This document shows, piece by piece, positions 8,004 through 22,300 of a stretch of 64,000 nucleotides of DNA. Every line of letters starts with the position of its first letter. Within the stretch, counting starts at the first letter, position 1. The translations under genes were made by a program, and so were the position numbers. The notes under the pieces were generated by a model. The model was given only the letters and a program-made list of their open reading frames with translations. It searched no databases and was not told the DNA's origin. Source of the DNA: Crossiella sp. CA-258035 (GTDB lineage Bacteria > Actinomycetota > Actinomycetes > Mycobacteriales > Pseudonocardiaceae); assembly GCF_030064675.1 (NCBI RefSeq), contig NZ_CP116413.1:2512001-2576000 (forward strand), given 5' to 3'.

Positions 8004-8468
8004 TCACCCGGATGCCCCAGCCATCGCCTCCTGCAACCCCTTGAGCGCCAACCGGTCCGCCCGCTCGTTCTCCGGATGCCCCGCGTGCCCCTTGACCCAG
8101 AACCACTCCACCCGGTGCCGCGCCGCGGCCGCCCCCAGCCGCTGCCACAGGTCCACGTTCTTCACCGGCTCCTTGCGCGAGCTGAGCCAGCCGTTCTTCT
8201 CCCACTTGGCCATCCAGGCGGTGACCCCGTTGCGCACGTAGGTGCTGTCGGTGTGGATGTGCACCACCGAGGGCCGGGTGAGCCCCTCCAGCGCGCTGAT
8301 CGGCGCCATCAGCTCCATCCGGTTGTTCGTGGTCACCCCGGGCTCGCCGCCGCAGATCTCCTTCTCGTGGCGCCCGTACCGCAGCACCGCGCCCCAGCCA
8401 CCGGGACCGGGGTTGGGGATGCAGGCCCCGTCGGTGTAGATCTCCACCACGTTCTCGTCGTCCGGCAC
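8004..8468 (-). CDS. rnhA: ribonuclease HI
   Basis: A 154-aa RNase HI degrading RNA in RNA:DNA hybrids. The four acidic catalytic residues are visible: Asp in [11 protein letters not shown], Glu in NRMELMA, Asp in HTDSTYV and Asp in ENERADRLA. The fold is complete, including [15 protein letters not shown]. The length is typical for the single-domain enzyme. ATG at 8468 is used. A second, extended RNase HI lies at 21350-22063, so the genome has paralogues. Confidence 0.95.
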
Positions 8469-9012: not shown

Positions 9013-9062
9013 GCGGCGACGATAGCCAGGGGAGCCGGTCGCCGCGAACGGGTATCGCGCGG

Positions 9063-9737
9063 TCAGGGATGGGGGAGCTGGGCCGCGACCTCGGCCACCG
9101 CGTCCAGCGCCTCCGGGTCCAAGCTGCCCGCCGCGGTCTCGGTCTCCGCGATCACCACCGCGTTGCCGTTGGGCTGCGCGTCGTAGTTGCGGCCGCTGAA
9201 CCGGATGTCCCGCAGCTCCAGCAGCTCCGCCCCCAGCGGTGTGATGTCACCGGAGCCGTGCACATCGCTGAGCCGCCGGAAGTCCTCGGCCTGCCCCCTG
9301 GTGCGGAAGCGCACCCAGACCACCGAGACGACCACCACGTTCCCCTCGCCGTCGCCGATGCTGAACAGCGCCCGGTCGAGTGACTTGCACGGGGTGTGCG
9401 CGAAGAACTCGCGGACCCGGCCGAAGGAGTGGGACAGGCACTCGGCCGCGGTCCTGACCTCCTTGCGCAGCTGCCGGGTGCCCAGCCGCTGCCACGCCTG
9501 GTCCGCCTTGCCGCTCTTCGCCGACTTCTTGCCCTCGTGCTTCCGCGCGCTGATGTTCCGCGAGGCGGCCGAGTTCGCCGCGCCGCCGCCCGAGCCGCCG
9601 CCCGCACCGCCCAGTCCCAGCCCGCCACCAGCCCCTGCCGCGCCGACCACCACCACGGCCACCGCCGCGACCGCGACGGCCCCGCCCTTGCCCGCCGGAT
9701 CCGAACCGCCGCCCGCGCCACCGATACGTCGTCCCAT
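9063..9737 (-). CDS. membrane-anchored protein of unknown function (224 aa)
   Basis: ATG at 9737 is preceded by GGGGAGGAG at 6 nt; the frame is open further upstream but without a better start. Residues about 15-45 form one hydrophobic segment (AVAVAAVAVVVVGAAG) followed by a Gly-rich low-complexity linker (about 45-65). A basic stretch (ARKHEGKKSAKSGKAD) precedes a C-terminal domain of about 150 residues with alternating strands and helices (VVVVSVVWVRF). Topology suggests a single membrane anchor with the folded domain on one side. No family recognised. Confidence 0.65.
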   Translation of the reverse strand: MGRRIGGAGGGSDPAGKGGAVAVAAVAVVVVGAAGAGGGLGLGGAGGGSGGGAANSAASRNISARKHEGKKSAKSGKADQAWQRLGTRQLRKEVRTAAECLSHSFGRVREFFAHTPCKSLDRALFSIGDGEGNVVVVSVVWVRFRTRGQAEDFRRLSDVHGSGDITPLGAELLELRDIRFSGRNYDAQPNGNAVVIAETETAAGSLDPEALDAVAEVAAQLPHP

Positions 9738-9873
9738 GTCGCTCCTCCCCGAGCCGACCTGATCCCGCTGACCTAACTCGCCGACGGCGGACACCTGACG
9801 CGAACCGGAAGCCGGTCCCCTGAACGGCCCAGGGAAAGCACCCGACCGGGCTCCCGGAATATCTCTAGGCAGG

Positions 9874-10065
9874 ATGTTTTCCGGCGGGAGGGAAAACGCG
9901 GAAATGGCCCGCCGAGATGGTTCCATTTGGCCGAAGTTCGAGGCTGGGAGCTGCCCCAACGGGCAGTTGACAAGCTTGACACTTGGCGAAGCCGAGATCA
10001 TGGCCAAGGCTGATACCCCTGTCGCCCAAGGGACAGGGGGACCGAATGAGATCATCGACTGGTAA
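9874..10065 (+). CDS. candidate small ORF (63 aa) upstream of the LAL regulator
   Basis: An ORF of 63 codons (or 21 codons from an internal ATG at 10000) ends 20 nt inside the start of the LuxR gene. Composition is unlike a shadow ORF: the tail reads AQGTGGPNEIIDW and the middle LTLGEAEIMAKAD. Third-codon GC is only about 70 percent, well below neighbouring genes, so it may be non-coding leader DNA. ATG 9874 has only a close AGG. If real it could be a peptide precursor or a leader coupled to the regulator. The rest of the 308-bp gap 9738-10045 shows no other gene. Confidence 0.25.
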   Translation: MFSGGRENAEMARRDGSIWPKFEAGSCPNGQLTSLTLGEAEIMAKADTPVAQGTGGPNEIIDW

Positions 10066-12451
10066 TTCCCCGGCCAAGTTCGTCGCGCGGGAAAAAGAAC
10101 TGGAACAGGCGCTCGGCGCATTGCTGGCCGATCGGGGCATGGCGATCACCGGGCCGGTCGGGATGGGCCGGACCGCGCTGTTGTCGGCGGTGGCGGACCG
10201 GCTCAACGCGGCCAGGTTCGCGGTGGTGTGGACCTCGGCGACGCAGGCGGGCCGGGAGCTGCCGCTGGGGGCGTTCACCGGGCTGTTCGGCGCGACCGAG
10301 CGGACCTCGCCGGGCGGACTGGTGGCGGCGCTGCTGCGGCGGGCCGAGGGCCGGACGCCGGTGCTGGTCATCGACGACGCGCACTACCTGGACCCGGCCT
10401 CGGCCGCGCTCGCGCTGGGGCTGGCGCACGAGCGGGAGGTGCGGCTGCTGGTCACCGCGCGGCCGGACGCGCCGATGCCGGATGCCGTTGTCGCGCTGTG
10501 GAAGGACCGCTACCTGCGCCGGCTCGACCTGGCGCCGTTCGAGCTGGAGGGCACCACCCGGCTGGTGCGCGCGCTGGTGGACGGCCAGGTGGCCGGACCG
10601 GCCGTGCGGCTGCTGCACGGCTGGACCGGCGGCAACCCGTTGTTCCTGACCGAGCTCGTCCGGCACGGCCTGGCCGCGGGCCGCCTGGTCACCGAGGGCG
10701 GGCGGTGGTGGTGGCGTGGCGCGGCCACCGTGCCGCCGCGGCTGGGCGAGCTGTTCGACGGGTGGCTGCGCGGGCTGGACCACCCGCAGCGGGAGGCGCT
10801 GGCCGCGGTCGCGCTCGGCGAACCGCTGCCGCTGCCGGTGCTGGCCGCAGTCGCGCCCGGCATGGAGGAGGGCCTGGAGGACCGGGGCCTGCTGCGCACC
10901 TCGGCCGACGGCGGGCGGATCGTGGTCCGGATCGCGCAACCCATGCTGGCCGCCGCGTTGCGCCAACGCTTGCCCCGGCTGCGCCGCCGTCGGCTGTGCG
11001 CCGCGCTGCTGGCCGCCGCCCCGGACACCGCGGACCCGGTGCTGCGCGCCAGCTGGCAGCTCGACGCGGACACCCCCGACCCGCGCACCCTGCTCCGCGC
11101 GGCCGCACTGACCTGCCGGCACGACCCCGAGCTCGCGGTACGCCTGGCCCGCCGCGCGCTGGAACGCACCGACCTGGCCGCGCCCACCCTGGCCGCCGCC
11201 CTGGTCGAGCTCGGCGAACCCGGCCAGGCCCGCCGGGTGCTGGAGACCGCCGGTGCGCGGCTGGCGCTGGCCGCGCACCGCTGCTGGGCCGAGCGCGACC
11301 CGGCCGGCGCGCTGGCCGACCTGGCCAGGCTGCCCGGACCGGGCGCGGTGGGACTCAGCTCGCTGGTGCTGCTGTTCAGCGGGCAGACCGCGCAGGCGGG
11401 CCAGTTGGCGGCGGAGGTGCTGCGCGTGCACGGGCCCGGACTCGACTCGGCCTGGCTGGCGTACTCGCTGGCCGAGGTGCTCGCCGGGCGCACCGCGGTG
11501 GCCGCCGGGCAGGAGCCGCGCACCGGCCCCGACCTGGCCATCCGCGCCCTCGCCCAGCTCTGGCGCGGCGACCCGGCCCAGCTGCCCGCCAGCGATCTCG
11601 CCTTCGGGCGTTGGCCGCGGACCACCGCCGGTGTGCCCTGGTCCCTGCTCAGCGGCCACGCGCACGCCCTCGCGGGGGAACCGGACTTGGCCGTGGCCCG
11701 GCTGCGCGAAGCCGTGGTGCAGCACGGTGGCGGGCACCGGCTCTTCCGCACCGAAGCGGTGTCCTGGCTGGCCTTCGCCCTGCTCGCGCAGCAGCGCACC
11801 GCCGAGGCCGGGGCCGCGCTGGACGCCGCCCCGCCGGATGCGATCACCCTGCTCCCCGGCCTCGCTGAGCAGGCCCGCGGCGCGGTCGCGGCCGCCCGCG
11901 GCGACCTGGCGGGTGCCCTGACCGCGTTCACCGCGGCCGGCGCCACCGCGCGGGCCGCGGGCGCGCACACCCTGGAGCTGACCGCGCTCACCGAGCTGGC
12001 CTGGCTCGCCCCCGGCGCCCCGCCCGACCGCCTGCGCACCCTGCTGACCAGCGTGGACGCCCCCCGGCTCGGCGCGGAGGCGGCGGCCGCGCTGGCGCTG
12101 GGCCGGGGTGAGCCGGGTGAGCTGCTGGAGCACGCGGCCCGGTTGGAGGCGCTCGGCCGGACCGACCGCGCGGCCCGGCTGGCCGAGGCCGCCACCGCCG
12201 CCGGTGGCGCCCGCCGGGGCGAGGCGCTGGTGCTGGTCAGCAGGCTGCGCGGCCGTTCCGCTCAGCCAACGGCCACCGAGGCGCTGACGCCGAGGGAGAT
12301 GGAGATCGCCGCGCTGGCCGCGGCCGGGCGGTCCGACCGGGAGGTGGCCGGCGCGCTCAACCTCTCGGTGCGGACCGTGCAGAGCCACCTGGCCCGGATC
12401 TACCGCAAGCTCGGCGTGCACTCACGCCGTGACCTGCCGTTCCGGCGCTGA
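10046..12451 (+). CDS. LuxR-family regulator of the large ATP-binding (LAL) type
   Basis: An 801-aa regulator. The N-terminal AAA-like domain starts at FVAREKEL; its P-loop reads GPVGMGRTALL, with Arg where the Walker A lysine is normally found, and Walker B is VLVIDDAHYLD. A long helical repeat region (about 300-730) follows. A C-terminal LuxR helix-turn-helix is at about 735-795 (LTPREMEIAALAAAGRSD, then VRTVQSHLARIYRKLG). ATG at 10046 is chosen because AGGGGG lies 5 nt upstream. LALs are known activators of natural-product clusters. The gene is convergent with the ABC exporters and overlaps them by 30 bp, so it is a candidate regulator of that locus. Confidence 0.88.
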   Translation: MRSSTGNSPAKFVAREKELEQALGALLADRGMAITGPVGMGRTALLSAVADRLNAARFAVVWTSATQAGRELPLGAFTGLFGATERTSPGGLVAALLRRAEGRTPVLVIDDAHYLDPASAALALGLAHEREVRLLVTARPDAPMPDAVVALWKDRYLRRLDLAPFELEGTTRLVRALVDGQVAGPAVRLLHGWTGGNPLFLTELVRHGLAAGRLVTEGGRWWWRGAATVPPRLGELFDGWLRGLDHPQREALAAVALGEPLPLPVLAAVAPGMEEGLEDRGLLRTSADGGRIVVRIAQPMLAAALRQRLPRLRRRRLCAALLAAAPDTADPVLRASWQLDADTPDPRTLLRAAALTCRHDPELAVRLARRALERTDLAAPTLAAALVELGEPGQARRVLETAGARLALAAHRCWAERDPAGALADLARLPGPGAVGLSSLVLLFSGQTAQAGQLAAEVLRVHGPGLDSAWLAYSLAEVLAGRTAVAAGQEPRTGPDLAIRALAQLWRGDPAQLPASDLAFGRWPRTTAGVPWSLLSGHAHALAGEPDLAVARLREAVVQHGGGHRLFRTEAVSWLAFALLAQQRTAEAGAALDAAPPDAITLLPGLAEQARGAVAAARGDLAGALTAFTAAGATARAAGAHTLELTALTELAWLAPGAPPDRLRTLLTSVDAPRLGAEAAAALALGRGEPGELLEHAARLEALGRTDRAARLAEAATAAGGARRGEALVLVSRLRGRSAQPTATEALTPREMEIAALAAAGRSDREVAGALNLSVRTVQSHLARIYRKLGVHSRRDLPFRR

Positions 12452-14221
12452 CAGCGCGGCGTAGGCCGCCGCGTGCAACGCGTACATCTCCGCGTAGTGC
12501 CCGTCCTGAGCGATCAGCTCGGCGTGCGTGCCGGTCTCGGCGACCCGGCCGTCCCGCAGCACCACGATCAGCTCCGCCTGCCGGACGGTGCCGAAGCGGT
12601 GCGAGACGACCAGCGTGATCGGCGCGTCCGGCCCGCGCTCGCTCAGGTAACGGCGCAGCAGCTCGGCCTCGCTGTCCGGATCCAGTCCGGCGGCGGGCTC
12701 GTCCAGCAGCACCAGCGCCGGGTCCGGCCGCATCCGGGCCCTGGCCAGCGCGAGCTTCTGCCACTGCCCGCCGGAGAGCTCCACGCCCTCGTGCGTCTTG
12801 CCGAGCTGACTGTCCAGCCCGTCGGGCAGCCCGGCGACCAGGCCGTCCGCGCCGCCTGCGGTCAGCGCGGCGCGCACCGCGGCCTCGTCCTCCAGCCGGG
12901 ACAGCTCGCCCACCCCGACGCTCTGCCGCAGCAGCAGCTCGAACCGGCAGAAGTCCTGGAAGCAGGCGGTCACCCGGCTCTGCCAGACCGCCGGGTCCAC
13001 CTCGGCCAGGTCCTGCCCGCCGAAGCTGATCGTGCCGGTGTCCGGCGGGTGCAACCCGGCCAGCAGCGTGACCAGGGTCGACTTGCCCGCGCCGTTGTCG
13101 CCCACCACCGCCACCGTCGACCCGGCGGGCAGCCGCAGGTCCACCGAGCTCAGTGCGGGGGAGTCCTGACCTGGGTAGGTGAAGCCAACCCCGCGCAGCA
13201 CCAGCTCGCCGCGTTCGGGCAGCGCCGCGCCACCGCCGGAGCGGGGGTCCTTGGGCCGGCTGTCCAGCTTCAGCAGCAGGCCGATGGTGTCCAGCGAGCG
13301 CCGCAGCCAGCCGATCAGCCAGCCCAGCCCGGTGGTCGCGCCGACCAGCCGGGTGGCCAGCAGCACCACCAGCACCGCGGCCCCGGCCGAGGCCGATCCG
13401 TCGAAGACTGACCGCGCCAGCTGGTACAGCCCGCCCAGCAGCGCCCCGACGAAGACCAGCCAGCCGCCCGCCACCGCCAGCGCGCCCTTGAGCCGGGCCG
13501 ACTCCCTCGGCCGGACCGCCTCGGCGAAGGCGGCCGCGTGCCGGGCCGCGATCTCCGGACCCAGCCGGTACAGCCGAAGTTCCCGCGCGGCCGAAGAATC
13601 AGTCGCCAGGGTGAACAGGCTCAGCCGCCGCCGGTCCGCCTCCGCCCCGGCCAGTTCGGCGGCGTTGACCAGCTTGGCCTGCCACCTGTTGGCCGCCACC
13701 AACGGCGCCACGAACAGCGGCAGCAGCGCCAGCAGCGGGTGCGCGAAGGTCAGCACCACCGCCGCGGCCAGGAACCGGGCGAGCAGGTTCGCGTTCTCCA
13801 CCAGCGCGGCGAAGGCGATGCTGAACTCGCCGCGCCGCTGGCGCAGCAGCTCCGCGGTGTCCAGGAACTCCGGGTCCTGGAAGTGCCCGATGCCCGAGCG
13901 CCCGGCACAGGCGGTCATCATCCGCTGGTCCAGCTCGAGGCCGATCCGCTGTTGCAGGGTCTGCCGCAGGTCGGTGCTGATCGCCGACCACTGGTGCGCG
14001 GCCACGGTCACCCCGGCCAGCACCGCCCCGCCCCAGAGCACCAGGCTCCAGTCCCGCCCCACCGCCCCGTCGATGAGCTGCTGCAAGCCGATGGCCTGGG
14101 CCGCGGCGACCATGTTGACCAGCGGGGACAGGATGAGCACCAGCAGTGCCCTGCGCCGGTCCACCCGGAGCGCGGTGCCGACCAGCAGCCGGACCGCGGC
14201 GAAGCTCTTACCCACGACCAT
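12422..14221 (-). CDS. ABC exporter half-transporter, second subunit
   Basis: A 599-aa type IV ABC exporter: about 340 residues of six-helix membrane domain, then an ATPase with Walker A GDNGAGKST near 372, signature LSGGQWQKL near 481, Walker B LLDEPAAGLD near 503 and H-loop SHRFGTV. There is no C39 peptidase domain. The start overlaps the end of the upstream half-transporter by 14 bp; ATG 14221 or GTG 14215 are possible, the latter better spaced from AAGGGA. The partner has identical length, so the pair is probably a heterodimeric exporter. Its 3' end overlaps the convergent LuxR gene by 30 bp. Confidence 0.9.
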   Translation of the reverse strand: MVVGKSFAAVRLLVGTALRVDRRRALLVLILSPLVNMVAAAQAIGLQQLIDGAVGRDWSLVLWGGAVLAGVTVAAHQWSAISTDLRQTLQQRIGLELDQRMMTACAGRSGIGHFQDPEFLDTAELLRQRRGEFSIAFAALVENANLLARFLAAAVVLTFAHPLLALLPLFVAPLVAANRWQAKLVNAAELAGAEADRRRLSLFTLATDSSAARELRLYRLGPEIAARHAAAFAEAVRPRESARLKGALAVAGGWLVFVGALLGGLYQLARSVFDGSASAGAAVLVVLLATRLVGATTGLGWLIGWLRRSLDTIGLLLKLDSRPKDPRSGGGAALPERGELVLRGVGFTYPGQDSPALSSVDLRLPAGSTVAVVGDNGAGKSTLVTLLAGLHPPDTGTISFGGQDLAEVDPAVWQSRVTACFQDFCRFELLLRQSVGVGELSRLEDEAAVRAALTAGGADGLVAGLPDGLDSQLGKTHEGVELSGGQWQKLALARARMRPDPALVLLDEPAAGLDPDSEAELLRRYLSERGPDAPITLVVSHRFGTVRQAELIVVLRDGRVAETGTHAELIAQDGHYAEMYALHAAAYAALSAPERQVTA

Positions 14222-16007
14222 TCCCTTCGGCGGTGGCGAACGGCGCGGACTGCACGCGGAACATCCGCGCGTACCGGCCGTCCGCGGCCAGCAGTTGCTC
14301 GTGCGTGCCGTACTCGCTGACCCGGCCGTTCCGCAGCACCGCGATCCGGTCGGCCAGGCGCACGGTGGCGAAGCGGTGGGAGACCAGGATCGTGGTGCTG
14401 CCCTTGGTGATCTCCAGGAGCCGGGCGTACAGCTCGTGCTCGGCGCGCACGTCCAGGTGCGCGGTCGGCTCGTCCAGCACGAGCACCCGCGCGCCGTGCC
14501 GCACCGCGTACAGCGCCCTGCTCAGCGCCAGCCGCTGCCACTGCCCGCCGGAGAGGTCGGTCCCCTCGGCGTACTCCCCGCTCAGCGGCGTGTCCCAGCC
14601 CTTGGCCAGCTTCTGCTCGACGCCGAGGAACCCGCCGAGCCGGGCTGCCGCAACGAGTTCCGCCTCCGTCGCCGGCGTCTCCACCGCCCCGAAGCCGATG
14701 TTGTCCCGCACCGGCAGCGGGTAGCGGACGAAGTCCTGGAACACCACCGCGAGCCTGCGCCGCCAGTCGGTGAGATCCAGCTCGGCCAGGTCGTGGCCGT
14801 CCACCAGGATCCGGCCCCGGTCCGGCCGGTAGAGCCCGGCGAGCAGCTTGGCCAGGGTGGACTTGCCCGCACCGTTGTCACCGACGATCGCCAGCGAGGT
14901 CCCGGCCGGCACCACCAGGTCTAGCCCGTCGAGCACCGCCCGGTCGTCGCCGGGGTAGCCGAAGCCCACGCCCTCGAACCGGATCTCCTTGCGCGGCAAG
15001 CCTTCGGCCGAACGTGTCTCGGCCGGCGAGTCGTCGGTCAGCGCGCCGACGGTGCGCGCGGCCGGGATGGCGGCGCTGGCCGAGTGCAGGGTCCACTGCA
15101 GGTCGCCGGTGAACCCCAGCGCGAACAGCCCGAGCAGCGCCTGCAGGGCCACCGCGAGCTGCTCGGGGGAGAGTGCGCCGTCCGCGGCCCACACCGCCAG
15201 CGGGCCGATCACCGCGGCGTGCCCGGCCAGTAGCAGGAAGACGGCCGCGGTGTGCCTGCTCTTGTTGATCGCGGTGCGGCGCAGCTGGACCATGCCGTCC
15301 CACCAGCACCGGGTGAACCCGGTCACCAGCCAGGAGTGCAGCCCGAACAGCCGCACCTCCTTGGCCGCGGCCGGGGTGGTGGCCAGGTCGCGCAGGTAGC
15401 CGGCCTGCCGCAGCTGGGCCACCTCGCCGGAGTGCGCGGACACCGAACGCCGGATCTCCAGCTCCTGCCAGTGCCCGGTGACGATCCAGGCCGCGCCCAG
15501 CACCAGCGGCATCCACCACGCCCCCGCCCAGCCGAGCAGCACCGCGGCGGCGATCCCGGTGAGCCGCAACGGAACCAGCCCGGCCAGCGCGGCCACCGCC
15601 TCCCTCGGCGGGAAGCTGCCCACGCCCACCGCGCGGGCCTGCTCGATCGCGTCGGCCACCTTGGGGTCGTCCAGGTGCGCGATGCCGGGCGGGCGCAGCG
15701 CGCCTTCGACGGTGCGCTGCGCGGTGGCCACGTCCACCGCCGCGCCCAGTCGCGCGGTGACCACGGCCCGGACCGGGTCCAGCACCACGTCCAGCACCAG
15801 CGCCGCGGCCAGCAGCGCCAGCCCGGCGAACACGGCCGCCTCGGCCCCGGTGAGCGCGGCCACCAGCCGCCCGGTGGCCAGCGGCAACAGCACCGCGCCC
15901 AGCACCTGGCCGAGGATCAGGGCGCACAGGACGGCGGTCCACCCGCCGGAGATCCGCGGCAGCTGCCGGATGAGCAGGAACGCCCCGTTGGGGCCGGTGG
16001 TGGGCAC
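14208..16007 (-). CDS. ABC exporter half-transporter, first subunit
   Basis: A 599-aa protein with an N-terminal six-helix exporter domain (first helix WTAVLCALILGQVLGAVLLP) and a C-terminal ATPase: Walker A GDNGAGKST near 376, signature LSGGQWQRL near 486, Walker B VLDEPTAHLD near 508 and H-loop SHRFATV. GTG at 16007 is chosen because AGAGGA lies 9 nt upstream and it gives a length equal to the partner; the open frame continues upstream without membrane-protein character. No peptidase domain is present. It lies behind a 10-codon ORF and a hairpin, opposite a radical SAM gene, so its cargo may be a modified peptide. Confidence 0.88.
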   Translation of the reverse strand: MPTTGPNGAFLLIRQLPRISGGWTAVLCALILGQVLGAVLLPLATGRLVAALTGAEAAVFAGLALLAAALVLDVVLDPVRAVVTARLGAAVDVATAQRTVEGALRPPGIAHLDDPKVADAIEQARAVGVGSFPPREAVAALAGLVPLRLTGIAAAVLLGWAGAWWMPLVLGAAWIVTGHWQELEIRRSVSAHSGEVAQLRQAGYLRDLATTPAAAKEVRLFGLHSWLVTGFTRCWWDGMVQLRRTAINKSRHTAAVFLLLAGHAAVIGPLAVWAADGALSPEQLAVALQALLGLFALGFTGDLQWTLHSASAAIPAARTVGALTDDSPAETRSAEGLPRKEIRFEGVGFGYPGDDRAVLDGLDLVVPAGTSLAIVGDNGAGKSTLAKLLAGLYRPDRGRILVDGHDLAELDLTDWRRRLAVVFQDFVRYPLPVRDNIGFGAVETPATEAELVAAARLGGFLGVEQKLAKGWDTPLSGEYAEGTDLSGGQWQRLALSRALYAVRHGARVLVLDEPTAHLDVRAEHELYARLLEITKGSTTILVSHRFATVRLADRIAVLRNGRVSEYGTHEQLLAADGRYARMFRVQSAPFATAEGNGRG

Positions 16008-16047
16008 GCGGATCGTCCTCTCAGGCGTTCGGGGGCGGGAGAAGAGC

Positions 16048-16078
16048 GGTGGCCGCTCGCGATCCGCAAGCGGCCACC
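16048..16078 (-). terminator. hairpin between 10-codon ORF and ABC genes (attenuator-like)
   Basis: A perfect 10-bp inverted repeat (16048-16057 with 16069-16078) with an 11-nt loop lies in the transcribed spacer after the stop of the 10-codon ORF (16087) and before the GTG of the ABC gene (16007). It could cause partial termination, giving more of the short peptide than of the exporter. Confidence 0.55.
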
Positions 16079-16086
16079 ACGGCGGG

Positions 16087-16119
16087 TCAGCGACCCACGC
16101 CGGTCGGGGGGTAAGCCAT
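16087..16119 (-). CDS. 10-codon ORF, candidate RiPP precursor or leader peptide
   Basis: ATG at 16119 opens an ORF encoding MAYPPTGVGR and then TGA. GGAGGAGGT at 16128-16136, 8 nt upstream, is close to a perfect anti-16S match and one of the strongest ribosome sites in the window. An in-frame TGA three codons before the ATG rules out a longer N-terminus. It lies between a divergent radical SAM gene and two exporter genes on its own strand. Very short precursors are known for some RiPPs (the biarylitide precursor is five residues). A regulatory leader peptide is the alternative. Translation and function are inferred. Confidence 0.5.
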   Translation of the reverse strand: MAYPPTGVGR

Positions 16120-16127
16120 GGAAGTTC

Positions 16128-16188
16128 ACCTCCTCCCAGCTCGGCCGAATTCCCATCGGGCGGGCTGATTCGGTTGCCGCAGACGCTA
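16128..16188 (-). promoter_or_regulatory. ribosome site and possible promoter of the 10-codon ORF
   Basis: The Shine-Dalgarno is at 16128-16136. A -10-like TAGCGT (minus strand, 16183-16188) would place transcription initiation near 16175 and give a leader of about 55 nt. No convincing -35 is seen, so the promoter is tentative while the ribosome site is clear. Confidence 0.35.
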
Positions 16189-16349
16189 ATCCGGCGCGAC
16201 CGCACCCCGAATCCGCAATCGGCTACGCAAACCCGGCCGCGCATTACCGAGGCCATCCGGCCCATACCCAGCCCTGCGTAGTCCGCGCCCCGGATTGGGT
16301 ATTCCGTTGCGGACGCGGCAATTCCGCCCGCTTCGTAGCGTTGCCGTCC

Positions 16350-17384
16350 ATGGACGCCACCGACCGCCCGAATGTCCTCATCTGGGACATGACCTTCGCC
16401 TGCCCGCTGCGCTGCTTCCACTGCTACACCGAGTCCGGCCGCCGCCCCGCGCGCAACCTGGACGGCCAGGACCTGTTCACCGTCGCCGACGCGCTGCTCT
16501 CCCTCAACGCCGAGCTGATCACCCTGTGCGGCGGCGAACCGCTGACCATTCGCCGCATCGTGGAAGTGGCCGGCCGGTTCCGCGCCGGCGGGATGCGGGT
16601 CTACGTCTACACCAGCGGCTGGGCGGCCAAGCCGGAGCTGCTGGCCGAGCTGGCCAGGGTGGTGGACAAGATCGTGGTCAGCGTGGACGGCCCGGACCCC
16701 GCCGTGCACGACCGCATCCGCGGCCGGGCCGGCTCCTTCGCGCACTGCCTGCGCACCCTGGGCCTGCTCAACGACCAGGTGGAGCGCGACCTGGCCGCCG
16801 GGCTGCCGCCGCTGCGCTTCGGCATCGACTACGTGACCGTGCGCAGCAACTACGCCCACATGACCCGGATGTGCACCGAGGTCGCCCCCCGCTTCCCGCA
16901 CCTGGAGTCACTGTCCTTCGGCGCGGTGGTGCCCACCGGCCTGGCCAGCAGACCCAGCTTCGTGGAGCGCGAGCTGCTCAGCGACGAGCAGGTGACCGAG
17001 CTGACCACCCCGGACTTCCGCCAGTGGCTGCGCGCGGCGGCCCCGGCCACGGTCGAGGTGGACACCACGGACAACTTCGAGGTGCAGATGAACCCGGCGT
17101 ACCTGGCCGCCAACCCGGACTTCCGCCCGATGGAGGTCGAGCCGGACGGCGCGGTCCGCGGCATGCCGATCTACGAGGGCACCGTCGGCAGCCTGCTGAC
17201 CGAGGATCCAGTGGAGCTCTGGCAGCGTTCAAGGGCCCGCTGGCACGACCCGTTCGTGCTGGACTGCCTGTCCCGGATCCGCACTCGCCGTGACTGGGCC
17301 GAGGCGGTCCGTCAGATCGACCGCCGGTTCGGCTCGCCCGAGGTGGTGGCCCGGATCGAGGCCAGGCCGGCGCTCGTGCCGTGA
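16350..17384 (+). CDS. radical SAM enzyme, probable peptide-modifying
   Basis: A 344-aa protein with the [4Fe-4S] triad Cys18-x3-Cys22-x2-Cys25 (ACPLRCFHC) and GGEP at 61-64 for SAM binding, then a TIM-barrel-like body. The C-terminus has no SPASM/twitch cysteine pattern. The N-terminal style (NVLIWDMTFACPLRC) resembles enzymes acting on ribosomal peptides or in cofactor synthesis. ATG at 16350 is used although it has no clear Shine-Dalgarno, so leaderless translation is possible; an in-frame TTG at 16341 is the alternative. It is divergent from the 10-codon ORF and the exporter pair. The substrate is unknown; modification of that peptide is my inference. Confidence 0.82.
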   Translation: MDATDRPNVLIWDMTFACPLRCFHCYTESGRRPARNLDGQDLFTVADALLSLNAELITLCGGEPLTIRRIVEVAGRFRAGGMRVYVYTSGWAAKPELLAELARVVDKIVVSVDGPDPAVHDRIRGRAGSFAHCLRTLGLLNDQVERDLAAGLPPLRFGIDYVTVRSNYAHMTRMCTEVAPRFPHLESLSFGAVVPTGLASRPSFVERELLSDEQVTELTTPDFRQWLRAAAPATVEVDTTDNFEVQMNPAYLAANPDFRPMEVEPDGAVRGMPIYEGTVGSLLTEDPVELWQRSRARWHDPFVLDCLSRIRTRRDWAEAVRQIDRRFGSPEVVARIEARPALVP

Positions 17385-17579
17385 CCTGCGCACATCCGGG
17401 GCCATCCCACCAGGCAGGACAAAGCGGCACAGAGTGGGCACTTCGCTAGACTCCCCAGGGGCGGCAGTGTGGCCGTACCGCTGGAGAAGCAGGTCTGGGG
17501 AGACCACTTCGGCCGGTTCCTCAAGTAGCTGAATCACGCGACGCGGCGCACAGGGTTGTTCGGTACCCTCTTCGCTGAA

Positions 17580-17675: not shown

Positions 17676-21311
<3,636 letters not shown>

Positions 21312-21349: not shown

Positions 21350-22063
21350 TCAGCCCGAGAACAGTTCAAGCACCACCGCCGCGTCCCGATGTCGCGCACA
21401 CCGCCCACCCCCGGTCGCCACCGCACACGGCTTGCCGTTCTTCCGCGCCGCCCGGCACTGCAACACCGGATCGTGCACATGGCACAACCCACCCGGCCCA
21501 GCCTCGATCGGACACGGCCTGCCCGCCTTGGTGATCGCCGAACACCGCCGCTGAACGAGCACCGCCGACCGCGGCACCGGCGCACGCTTCCCAGCCGCCC
21601 GCCGCGACACCCGCGCGCCGGTCACCTCCCGCACACCGCGTCCCGCCAGCCGATCCGCCCGTTCGTTCTCCGGAATCCCCGAGTGCCCCTTCACCCACCG
21701 CCACTCAACCCGGTGCGGCGCAACGACATCGTCCAGCAACCGCCACAGATCGGCGTTCGGCACCGGCCGGTTCCCCTTCGCCAGCCAGCCATTGGCCTTC
21801 CACCGCGGCACGCTGACCCCCATCCCGTCGGTCAGGTAGCGACTGTCGCTGAAGACCCGCACCGCACACGGCCGGGTCAGCGCCCGCACCGCCTGGATGG
21901 GCGCCATCAACTCCATCCGGTTGCTCGTGGTCGGCCCCGGCTCACCGCCGTACAGCTCCCGCTCACGCCCGCCGCACCGCAACACCGCACCCCAGCCACC
22001 GGGGCCGGGGTTCCCCCGGCACGCGCCATCGGTGTAGATCTCCACAACCTGTTCGGTCTCCAT
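21350..22063 (-). CDS. ribonuclease HI with duplicated Cys/His C-terminal tail
   Basis: A 237-aa protein. Residues 1-150 are a complete RNase HI with Asp in [11 protein letters not shown], Glu in NRMELMA, Asp in FSDSRYL and Asp in [10 protein letters not shown]. The tail carries two copies of a Cys-x8-Cys-x(9-10)-Cys-x2-His motif: [12 protein letters not shown]...LCHVH and [12 protein letters not shown]...RCARH. Such C..G..C..C..H repeats (DUF5763-like, by memory) are presumed zinc-binding. ATG 22063 is chosen because the upstream 65 codons of open frame lack protein character. It is a paralogue of the RNase HI at 8004-8468. The tail may target the enzyme to a nucleic acid or protein partner. 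Confidence 0.85.
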
Positions 22064-22300
22064 GAACCCGAACGTAAGACCACCCCGCGCACCCGTCCGC
22101 GTAGCGAACTCCGGTCCGGCACAGGGCTCACTTCTTGATGAACAGGGTGATCGTCGCAGCGACAGCCGAGGCGAAGCTGCCCACCGCGCCCACCGTCGCG
22201 GCCCGTGCACCATACGCACAGTGCGACAGTCGTCTGTCGCTCGACCCGCCTCGACCACAGACGTGCCGTGTTGACTCCGCTCGGACCGGGAGGCCAGGCG

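Follow-up and report, generated by a model that had tools for sequence, protein, structure and literature searches.

The locus described here lies in a stretch of 64,000 nucleotides of Crossiella sp. CA-258035 (contig NZ_CP116413.1, positions 2,512,001 to 2,576,000), referred to as the window. A cassette extending from 9916 to 17386, with genes on both strands, aligns with G185 and G187 as one 7.5-kb block of 82% identity. At its far end, a LAL-type LuxR regulator with an ATPase and a LuxR HTH domain (PF13191 and PF00196) is encoded on the plus strand (9983-12451) and converges on the genes of two ABC half-transporters, namely ABC2 (12422-14221, minus strand, 599 aa) and the adjoining ABC1 (14208-16007, minus strand, 599 aa, GTG start). 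These are followed by an ORF of only 10 codons (16087-16119, minus strand) and, divergent from it, by the gene of a radical SAM enzyme of 344 aa (16350-17384, plus strand; PF04055, E 7.4e-18). The metH gene, found beyond the radical SAM gene at 17679-21311, is not regarded as part of the set, because none of the window ORFs lying further than +1095 from the start of the enzyme gene had a match in at least two other loci. Two similar ORFs (8004-8468 and 21350-22258, minus strand), which by their motif look RNase H-like, stand one on each side of the region formed by the cassette and metH.

A scan of genome contigs with a 40-sequence alignment of the enzyme yielded 76 loci, and the LAL regulator, the two ABC genes, the short ORF and the radical SAM gene were found together in 13 of them. 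In these loci the homologues of ABC1 (at the same place, 64-84% identity) and ABC2 (59-83%) are divergent from the enzyme gene, and a short ORF is present in every gap between enzyme and ABC1. Relatives of the enzyme were detected in 13 of 390 same-family genomes at E 1e-20, four of them of the YPP cassette type (see the peptides below), and in 20 of 392 genomes of the genus of G779 at E 1e-80, two of them of this type; the genus was taken to be Streptomyces since several of its enzymes are at zero distance from named Streptomyces loci. A search of plasmids with the radical SAM enzyme at E 1e-60 and a search of another order with ABC1 at E 1e-180 gave no match.

The cassette varies between strains in both presence and position. 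G188 (L215), which belongs to the same species and has flanks 95 and 98% identical, lacks window positions 9855-17266 through a clean gap, and of its radical SAM gene just the final 118 bases are left; in this one case, therefore, the set has been lost as a whole. In G185 and G187 the order of the cassette and a neighbouring gene (9057-9841 in the window; L216, L217) is reversed relative to the window. Since this gene flanks the cassette on one side in some Crossiella strains and on the opposite side in others, either the cassette or the gene has moved.

The short ORF encodes the peptide MAYPPTGVGR and, read directly from 16119 to 16087 on the minus strand, consists of ATG-GCT-TAC-CCC-CCG-ACC-GGC-GTG-GGT-CGC-TGA. 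It is preceded by the Shine-Dalgarno sequence GGAGGAGGT (16128-16136, minus strand), and its start is fixed by an in-frame TGA (16126-16128) standing 9 nt 5' of the ATG. A preliminary description, based on the letters of this DNA, had proposed a minimal RiPP-like locus made up of this ORF with its strong ribosome site and limiting upstream stop, a divergent radical SAM gene devoid of SPASM cysteines, two exporter genes and a LAL regulator at the far end. All these elements were recovered, and the RiPP-like reading is supported by the comparison of loci: an ORF of 9-14 codons occupies the same place in 16 of 16 loci having the same layout. The window, G185 and two genomes belonging to the genus of G779 are included in this set, and all its members have ABC1 at the same place. 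The 16 loci come from five genera and comprise 15 distinct ones, as L099 repeats L023; a single strain accounts for L021 and L022, which are separate contigs.

Eleven distinct peptides are encoded at this position: MAYPPTGVGR, MAYPPTGLGR (in two strains, starting with GTG in one of them), MMYPPPTVGTGR, MMYPPPTTGGN, MMYPPPTVGDAS, MMYPPPTTSGPRPS, MMYPPPTVGD, MRAYPPVDAS, MSAYPPVDPA, MAFPPTTLGGTR and MRKYPDVGA. The element [Y/F]P is found in 11/11 and [Y/F]PP in 10/11, MRKYPDVGA being the one without the second Pro. What is kept is thus [Y/F]-P(-P), beginning at residue 3 or 4, with Phe in place of Tyr in the Kutzneria ORF, and the tail differs in both sequence and length; the PPTGVGR-like ending that the preliminary description proposed to look for is not the conserved part. 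The same description had made conservation of the residues beside homologous radical SAM and ABC genes the decisive point, and on this count it holds: [Y/F]P is maintained, while the codons of Tyr (TAC/TAT) and Pro (CCC/CCG/CCT) vary synonymously across genera. When the gap between the radical SAM and ABC1 genes was read locus by locus, the peptide starts were found to vary (MM, MR, MS, MA), with GTG as the start codon in Crossiella S99.2. A scan restricted to short ORFs starting with MA had given matches in 6 of 76 loci, of which only three had an aromatic-Pro peptide; the non-conservation that it seemed to indicate was rejected because the starts differ between loci.

An ORF of 8-14 codons led by a Shine-Dalgarno sequence, with aromatic-Pro at residues 3-4, was present in 16/16 real regions and in 0/3200 dinucleotide shuffles, the 16 regions being those chosen for having the ORF and the set of Shine-Dalgarno sequences having been widened by AGGTG to admit the weaker Kutzneria site; any Shine-Dalgarno-led ORF of 8-14 codons occurred in 62 of the 3200 shuffles. 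At the DNA level, the window and two Crossiella strains share 31/33 and 29/33 positions of the ORF (94 and 88%), 17/19 of the predicted operator in both comparisons (89%) and 26/31 and 27/31 of the hairpin (84 and 87%), against 72-75% identity in the spacers flanking the operator. With respect to strain G187, the conservation of the ORF DNA (88%) does not exceed that of the operator (89%). Judged by its sequence, a ribosomally encoded precursor ORF with residue-level conservation is found beside the gene of a modifying enzyme, as is the case in RiPPs.

Conserved DNA elements surround the ORF. Just 3' of it lies a 12-bp hairpin (16046-16080, minus strand; fold z = -4.36 for 16005-16140), whose 156 pair cells were 100% paired, with 8 double-change cells, in 13 sequences from the 16 loci, from which the scored structure itself had been drawn. 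This hairpin is likely a partial terminator or an mRNA stabiliser between the precursor and the exporter genes. On the 5' side, the predicted operator TTGCGTAGCCGATTGCGGA (16212-16230, minus strand; TTGCGTA-N6-TACGGA) is the single match in the window at up to 3 mismatches (chance 0.02) and the sole match in the 9.17-Mb genome at up to 2. Of the 15 loci scanned, all but Kutzneria (14/15) have a copy upstream of the ORF with no more than 3 mismatches, and copies facing the enzyme gene were seen in several loci. A -10-like TAGCGT (16183-16188, minus strand) may belong to the promoter of the short ORF, and a TAGC element is found 41-70 nt before the start codon in 16/16 loci. A second TAGCGT (16336-16341, plus strand), also with a putative promoter role, stands 8 nt before the ATG of the radical SAM gene, and no Shine-Dalgarno sequence was seen in this interval (16336-16350, plus strand). 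The radical SAM gene is thus possibly expressed from a leaderless transcript, next to a strongly initiated precursor.

As regards the enzyme, Pfam gave no SPASM match and placed Fer4_12 just below threshold. In 98 distinct sequences, the window included, only the three cysteines of the CxxxCxxC motif (C18, C22 and C25) are invariant; no auxiliary-cluster Cys is conserved beyond them, the next best being C175 (82/98). The best 25 of 37 NCBIfam matches cover the first half of the protein and are all far below their cut-offs. The AlphaFold2 model (pLDDT 91, pTM 0.91) is closest to the RiPP maturase SkfB (TM 0.65), with DesII, SuiB, BlsE, viperin and PqqE among the best 21. A maturase-like fold devoid of auxiliary-cluster cysteines might point to a change that needs no extra electron acceptor, which is a guess from the model. 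C175, placed on a helix there, gives a weak hint of a hydrogen donor for epimerisation.

In the enzyme tree, the YPP enzymes form one clade of 15 rows (support 100/100), and short ORFs also accompany a second (WPP) clade of 5 rows (support 100/98). The peptides of the latter, MAYWPPTKVSH, MAYWPPTTVSH, MAFWPPAKGTHA or MAWPSWPEGIR, are encoded directly 3' of the enzyme gene, and the ORF is followed by a hairpin-like repeat, recognised by eye, and then by an MFS gene (4/5) or an M28 peptidase gene (1/5). The peptidase case is L050 (about 9047 and 9162-10547), where the peptidase takes the place of an exporter after a WPP-type short ORF and is a candidate for peptide trimming. The peptide MALPKLDPRKTW of L017 was not counted, as its enzyme is a weak sister of the YPP clade (92/76) and the peptide has no aromatic-Pro.

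The wider enzyme family, by contrast with both clades, is accompanied by lanthionine synthetases. A LanKC/LanL-like gene, searched with two query proteins having RamC_N and LANC_like domains, was found in 55 of 61 other loci (all except L032, L035, L037, L039, L062 and L093), in 0/13 YPP loci within the flanks examined and in 0/2 WPP loci. Four of six precursors tested matched the NCBIfam ALQxL class IV lanthipeptide family above cut-off, and 49 of 51 lanthipeptide-like precursors near the enzyme, in 34 of the 61 loci, carry [YFWH]P after residue 15, in mutually related rows that do not count as independent events; one of the two lacking it (L059) is unlike a real precursor. Under the same precursor rule, [YFWH]P after residue 15 occurred in 0 of 13 precursors from 20 LanKC loci without the enzyme (8.5-9 kb examined), drawn from 54 places in 41 genomes of one genus. 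No aromatic-Pro precursor was obtained under the common rule in 27 of the 61 loci, nine of which are positive under a looser one (L034, L038, L044, L048, L068, L072, L080, L090 and L094), and none was convincing by eye in L012, L018, L031, L032, L037, L039 and L062. Precursors with [YFWH]PC, often several per cluster, occur in L036, L043, L049, L053, L055, L060, L066, L067, L069, L088, L089 and others. By their predicted gene content, these represent a large set of lanthipeptide clusters of class III/IV-like type in which this radical SAM gene occurs, a group of which no description was found in the literature searched, and the wider enzyme family mostly sits in class III/IV-like clusters. In L033, a close non-YPP relative, the lanthipeptide-like precursor ends in ...VSAWPPTTICLCCVQD, with a core resembling the short ORFs. 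Four relatives of the enzyme (53-54%; L032, L039, L100 and L117) had no aromatic-Pro precursor in the DNA examined, which was little in L100 and L117 and little downstream in L039; L032 and L039 also have no LanKC.

From these data, the 10-codon ORF is probably the whole precursor of a small radical-SAM-modified peptide, namely a RiPP lacking a conventional leader; the five genes of the cassette that encodes it are found in some strains and missing from others. In the proposed mechanism, the LAL regulator would activate the promoter of the short ORF and the exporter through the TTGCGTA-N6-TACGGA box, a putative site for this regulator, and the strong ribosome site together with the hairpin 3' of the ORF would allow the peptide to be translated in excess. 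The radical SAM enzyme, with its single iron-sulfur cluster motif, would then recognise and change the aromatic residue of Tyr/Phe-Pro(-Pro). This modification may be redox-neutral or involve a single electron, epimerisation being one guess, since no auxiliary cluster motif is kept. The variable tail may be trimmed by host peptidases, since the cassette has none of its own, and export of the product would fall to the ABC pair.

An alternative in which the ORF is a ribosomal carrier, whose Tyr is altered by the enzyme and then released to give a small molecule or a building block, is unlikely, even if it has precedents. In the case of PQQ, the modified residue is excised from a ribosomal carrier peptide. 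In rufomycin, as outlined in PMC12951456, a nitrated pentapeptide serves as building block. The peptides at our locus are likewise very short, their core is just [Y/F]P(P), and their tail is too variable to be easily seen as a functional part of the product; the absence of a peptidase from the cassette, and of the second Pro from MRKYPDVGA, also weigh against the precursor reading. The occurrence of Phe in Kutzneria and of Trp in the second clade, however, means that phenol chemistry is not required, and neither a peptidase nor an assembly-line gene is conserved, given that no window gene beyond the five matched at least two loci.

It is decidedly doubtful that the LAL regulator senses the modified peptide as a signal, as opposed to the peptide being secreted to act on a target outside. 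The regulator strictly co-occurs with the ORF, its homologue being found in 13/13 YPP loci (cut by the contig end in L022) and in 0/63 others, and its presumed box lies upstream of the ORF; yet a regulator of the pathway would co-occur equally.

The preliminary description had also considered a leader peptide controlling the exporter. In such a mechanism, ribosome pausing at Tyr-Pro-Pro would open the hairpin and switch the exporter on. An N-terminal PP or PPP behind a strong ribosome site could equally be the look of a stalling leader peptide, the hairpin directly 3' is conserved with compensatory changes, and the short ORF is followed in both clades by a hairpin and, in most cases, by an exporter gene (mostly MFS in the second one, with the hairpin recognised by eye). 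This explanation is nevertheless very unlikely in view of the exporter relatives. ABC1 has a relative at E 1e-60 in 145 of 297 same-family genomes. Among 30 such loci fetched, the ORF was present in 4/4 standing beside a radical SAM gene, and an aromatic-Pro ORF within 600 nt upstream was found in 0/26 of those without the enzyme in the DNA examined, two of which have unrelated short ORFs. An attenuator, on the contrary, should track its exporter across relatives. Moreover, the ORF accompanies two unrelated exporters as well as a peptidase gene in L050, and aromatic-Pro marks the full-length lanthipeptide-like precursors beside the enzyme family, not those of LanKC loci without it. The exporter family itself is uninformative on the cargo, as of two distant ABC1 relatives whose neighbours were checked, one is next to an NRPS and the other to a glycosyltransferase and an HTH protein. 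Taken together, the exporter relatives, the second clade and the precursors of the wider family indicate that the short ORF follows the radical SAM gene and not the exporter.

Lastly, a chance ORF in a conserved regulatory region is hardly credible: in one pair of strains the operator and hairpin DNA are conserved to about the same degree as the ORF, but the shuffles never reproduced the pattern of the 16 regions, Tyr and Pro codons change synonymously across genera, and the ORF is better kept than plain spacer between Crossiella strains.

With regard to the origin of this precursor, the enzyme has most likely evolved from enzymes that tailor class III/IV-like lanthipeptides and that would act on this aromatic-Pro site where the core begins, and the short precursors look like such a core after loss of both the leader and the lanthionine synthetase. 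This history, with a presumed direction of change, is drawn from the enzyme tree and from the L033 precursor. On balance, we lean towards a new RiPP family with naked-core precursors, in which an enzyme with kin among lanthipeptide-tailoring enzymes acts alone on Tyr/Phe-Pro-Pro peptides of 9-14 residues, without a leader or a recognition domain, and in which leader-free precursors arose on two branches of the enzyme (YPP with ABC and YWPP mostly with MFS).

If true, the radical SAM RiPPs would gain a leader-free family whose substrate is so short that it could be supplied as a synthetic peptide, and the enzyme could then be assayed directly. The presence of aromatic-Pro both in full-length lanthipeptide-like precursors and in naked ORFs of 9-14 residues would show a way in which a RiPP enzyme could become independent of a leader, and it predicts that, in one group of lanthipeptide clusters of class III/IV-like type, aromatic-Pro undergoes a so far undescribed modification. 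It also provides a search rule, namely this radical SAM family plus a Shine-Dalgarno-led ORF with [YFWH]P, by which genes much smaller than those usually predicted could be found. In the titles and abstracts of the full-text literature searched, with subscription papers and preprint servers outside its scope, no description of a radical SAM enzyme with leader-free aromatic-Pro precursors was found.

Several known systems share part of these features. The known radical SAM/SPASM RiPP maturases use a leader and auxiliary clusters. The enzyme described here resembles SkfB, SuiB and PqqE in its overall modelled fold, its CxxxCxxC core and its association with a peptide, but differs in that conserved Cys beyond CxxxCxxC are absent in 98 sequences. 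The enzymes of three-residue cyclophanes (triceptides) carry SPASM clusters and leaders as well, and in these systems the aromatic residue is located within a short motif; this is also the case here, although Pro directly follows the aromatic residue in our peptides. With the class III/IV lanthipeptide clusters that have a radical SAM gene, the locus shares the enzyme family and the aromatic-Pro in the precursor, whereas it differs in having no LanKC/LanL found, no leader and no Cys in peptides of 9-14 residues. An ELQ/ALQxL-type leader with a Ser/Cys core was not found in the short ORFs, and a loose rule gave one LanA-like ORF in 15 YPP/WPP loci (L020), without resemblance. In a survey of lanthipeptide clusters (PMC7268733), radical SAM genes are named as possibly encoding tailoring enzymes.

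The closest precedent in size is provided by the biarylitides (BytA/BytO), which, according to the outlines in PMC13417212 and PMC12951456, derive from a 5-residue precursor with almost no leader, encoded by an 18-bp gene adjacent to that of one modifying enzyme, a cytochrome P450, and yield a cross-linked tripeptide. RiPP precursors as short as five residues, mentioned in the preliminary description, thus do exist (PMC13417212; PMC12951456), and a preprint on the P450 macrocyclisation of leaderless ribosomal peptides is cited in PMC12951456. The two systems have in common a tiny precursor with almost no leader beside one modifying enzyme, and differ in the radical SAM enzyme in place of the P450, the Tyr/Phe-Pro-Pro core, and the LAL regulator and ABC pair. 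In fact, instead of a pentapeptide with cross-linked residues 3 and 5, the 11 peptides have 9-14 residues and one aromatic each, and instead of a P450 the conserved neighbours are the LAL regulator, the two ABC genes and the radical SAM gene. What is known, therefore, is the RiPP logic and a precursor without a leader; what appears to be new is the enzyme family, which the literature searched does not describe.
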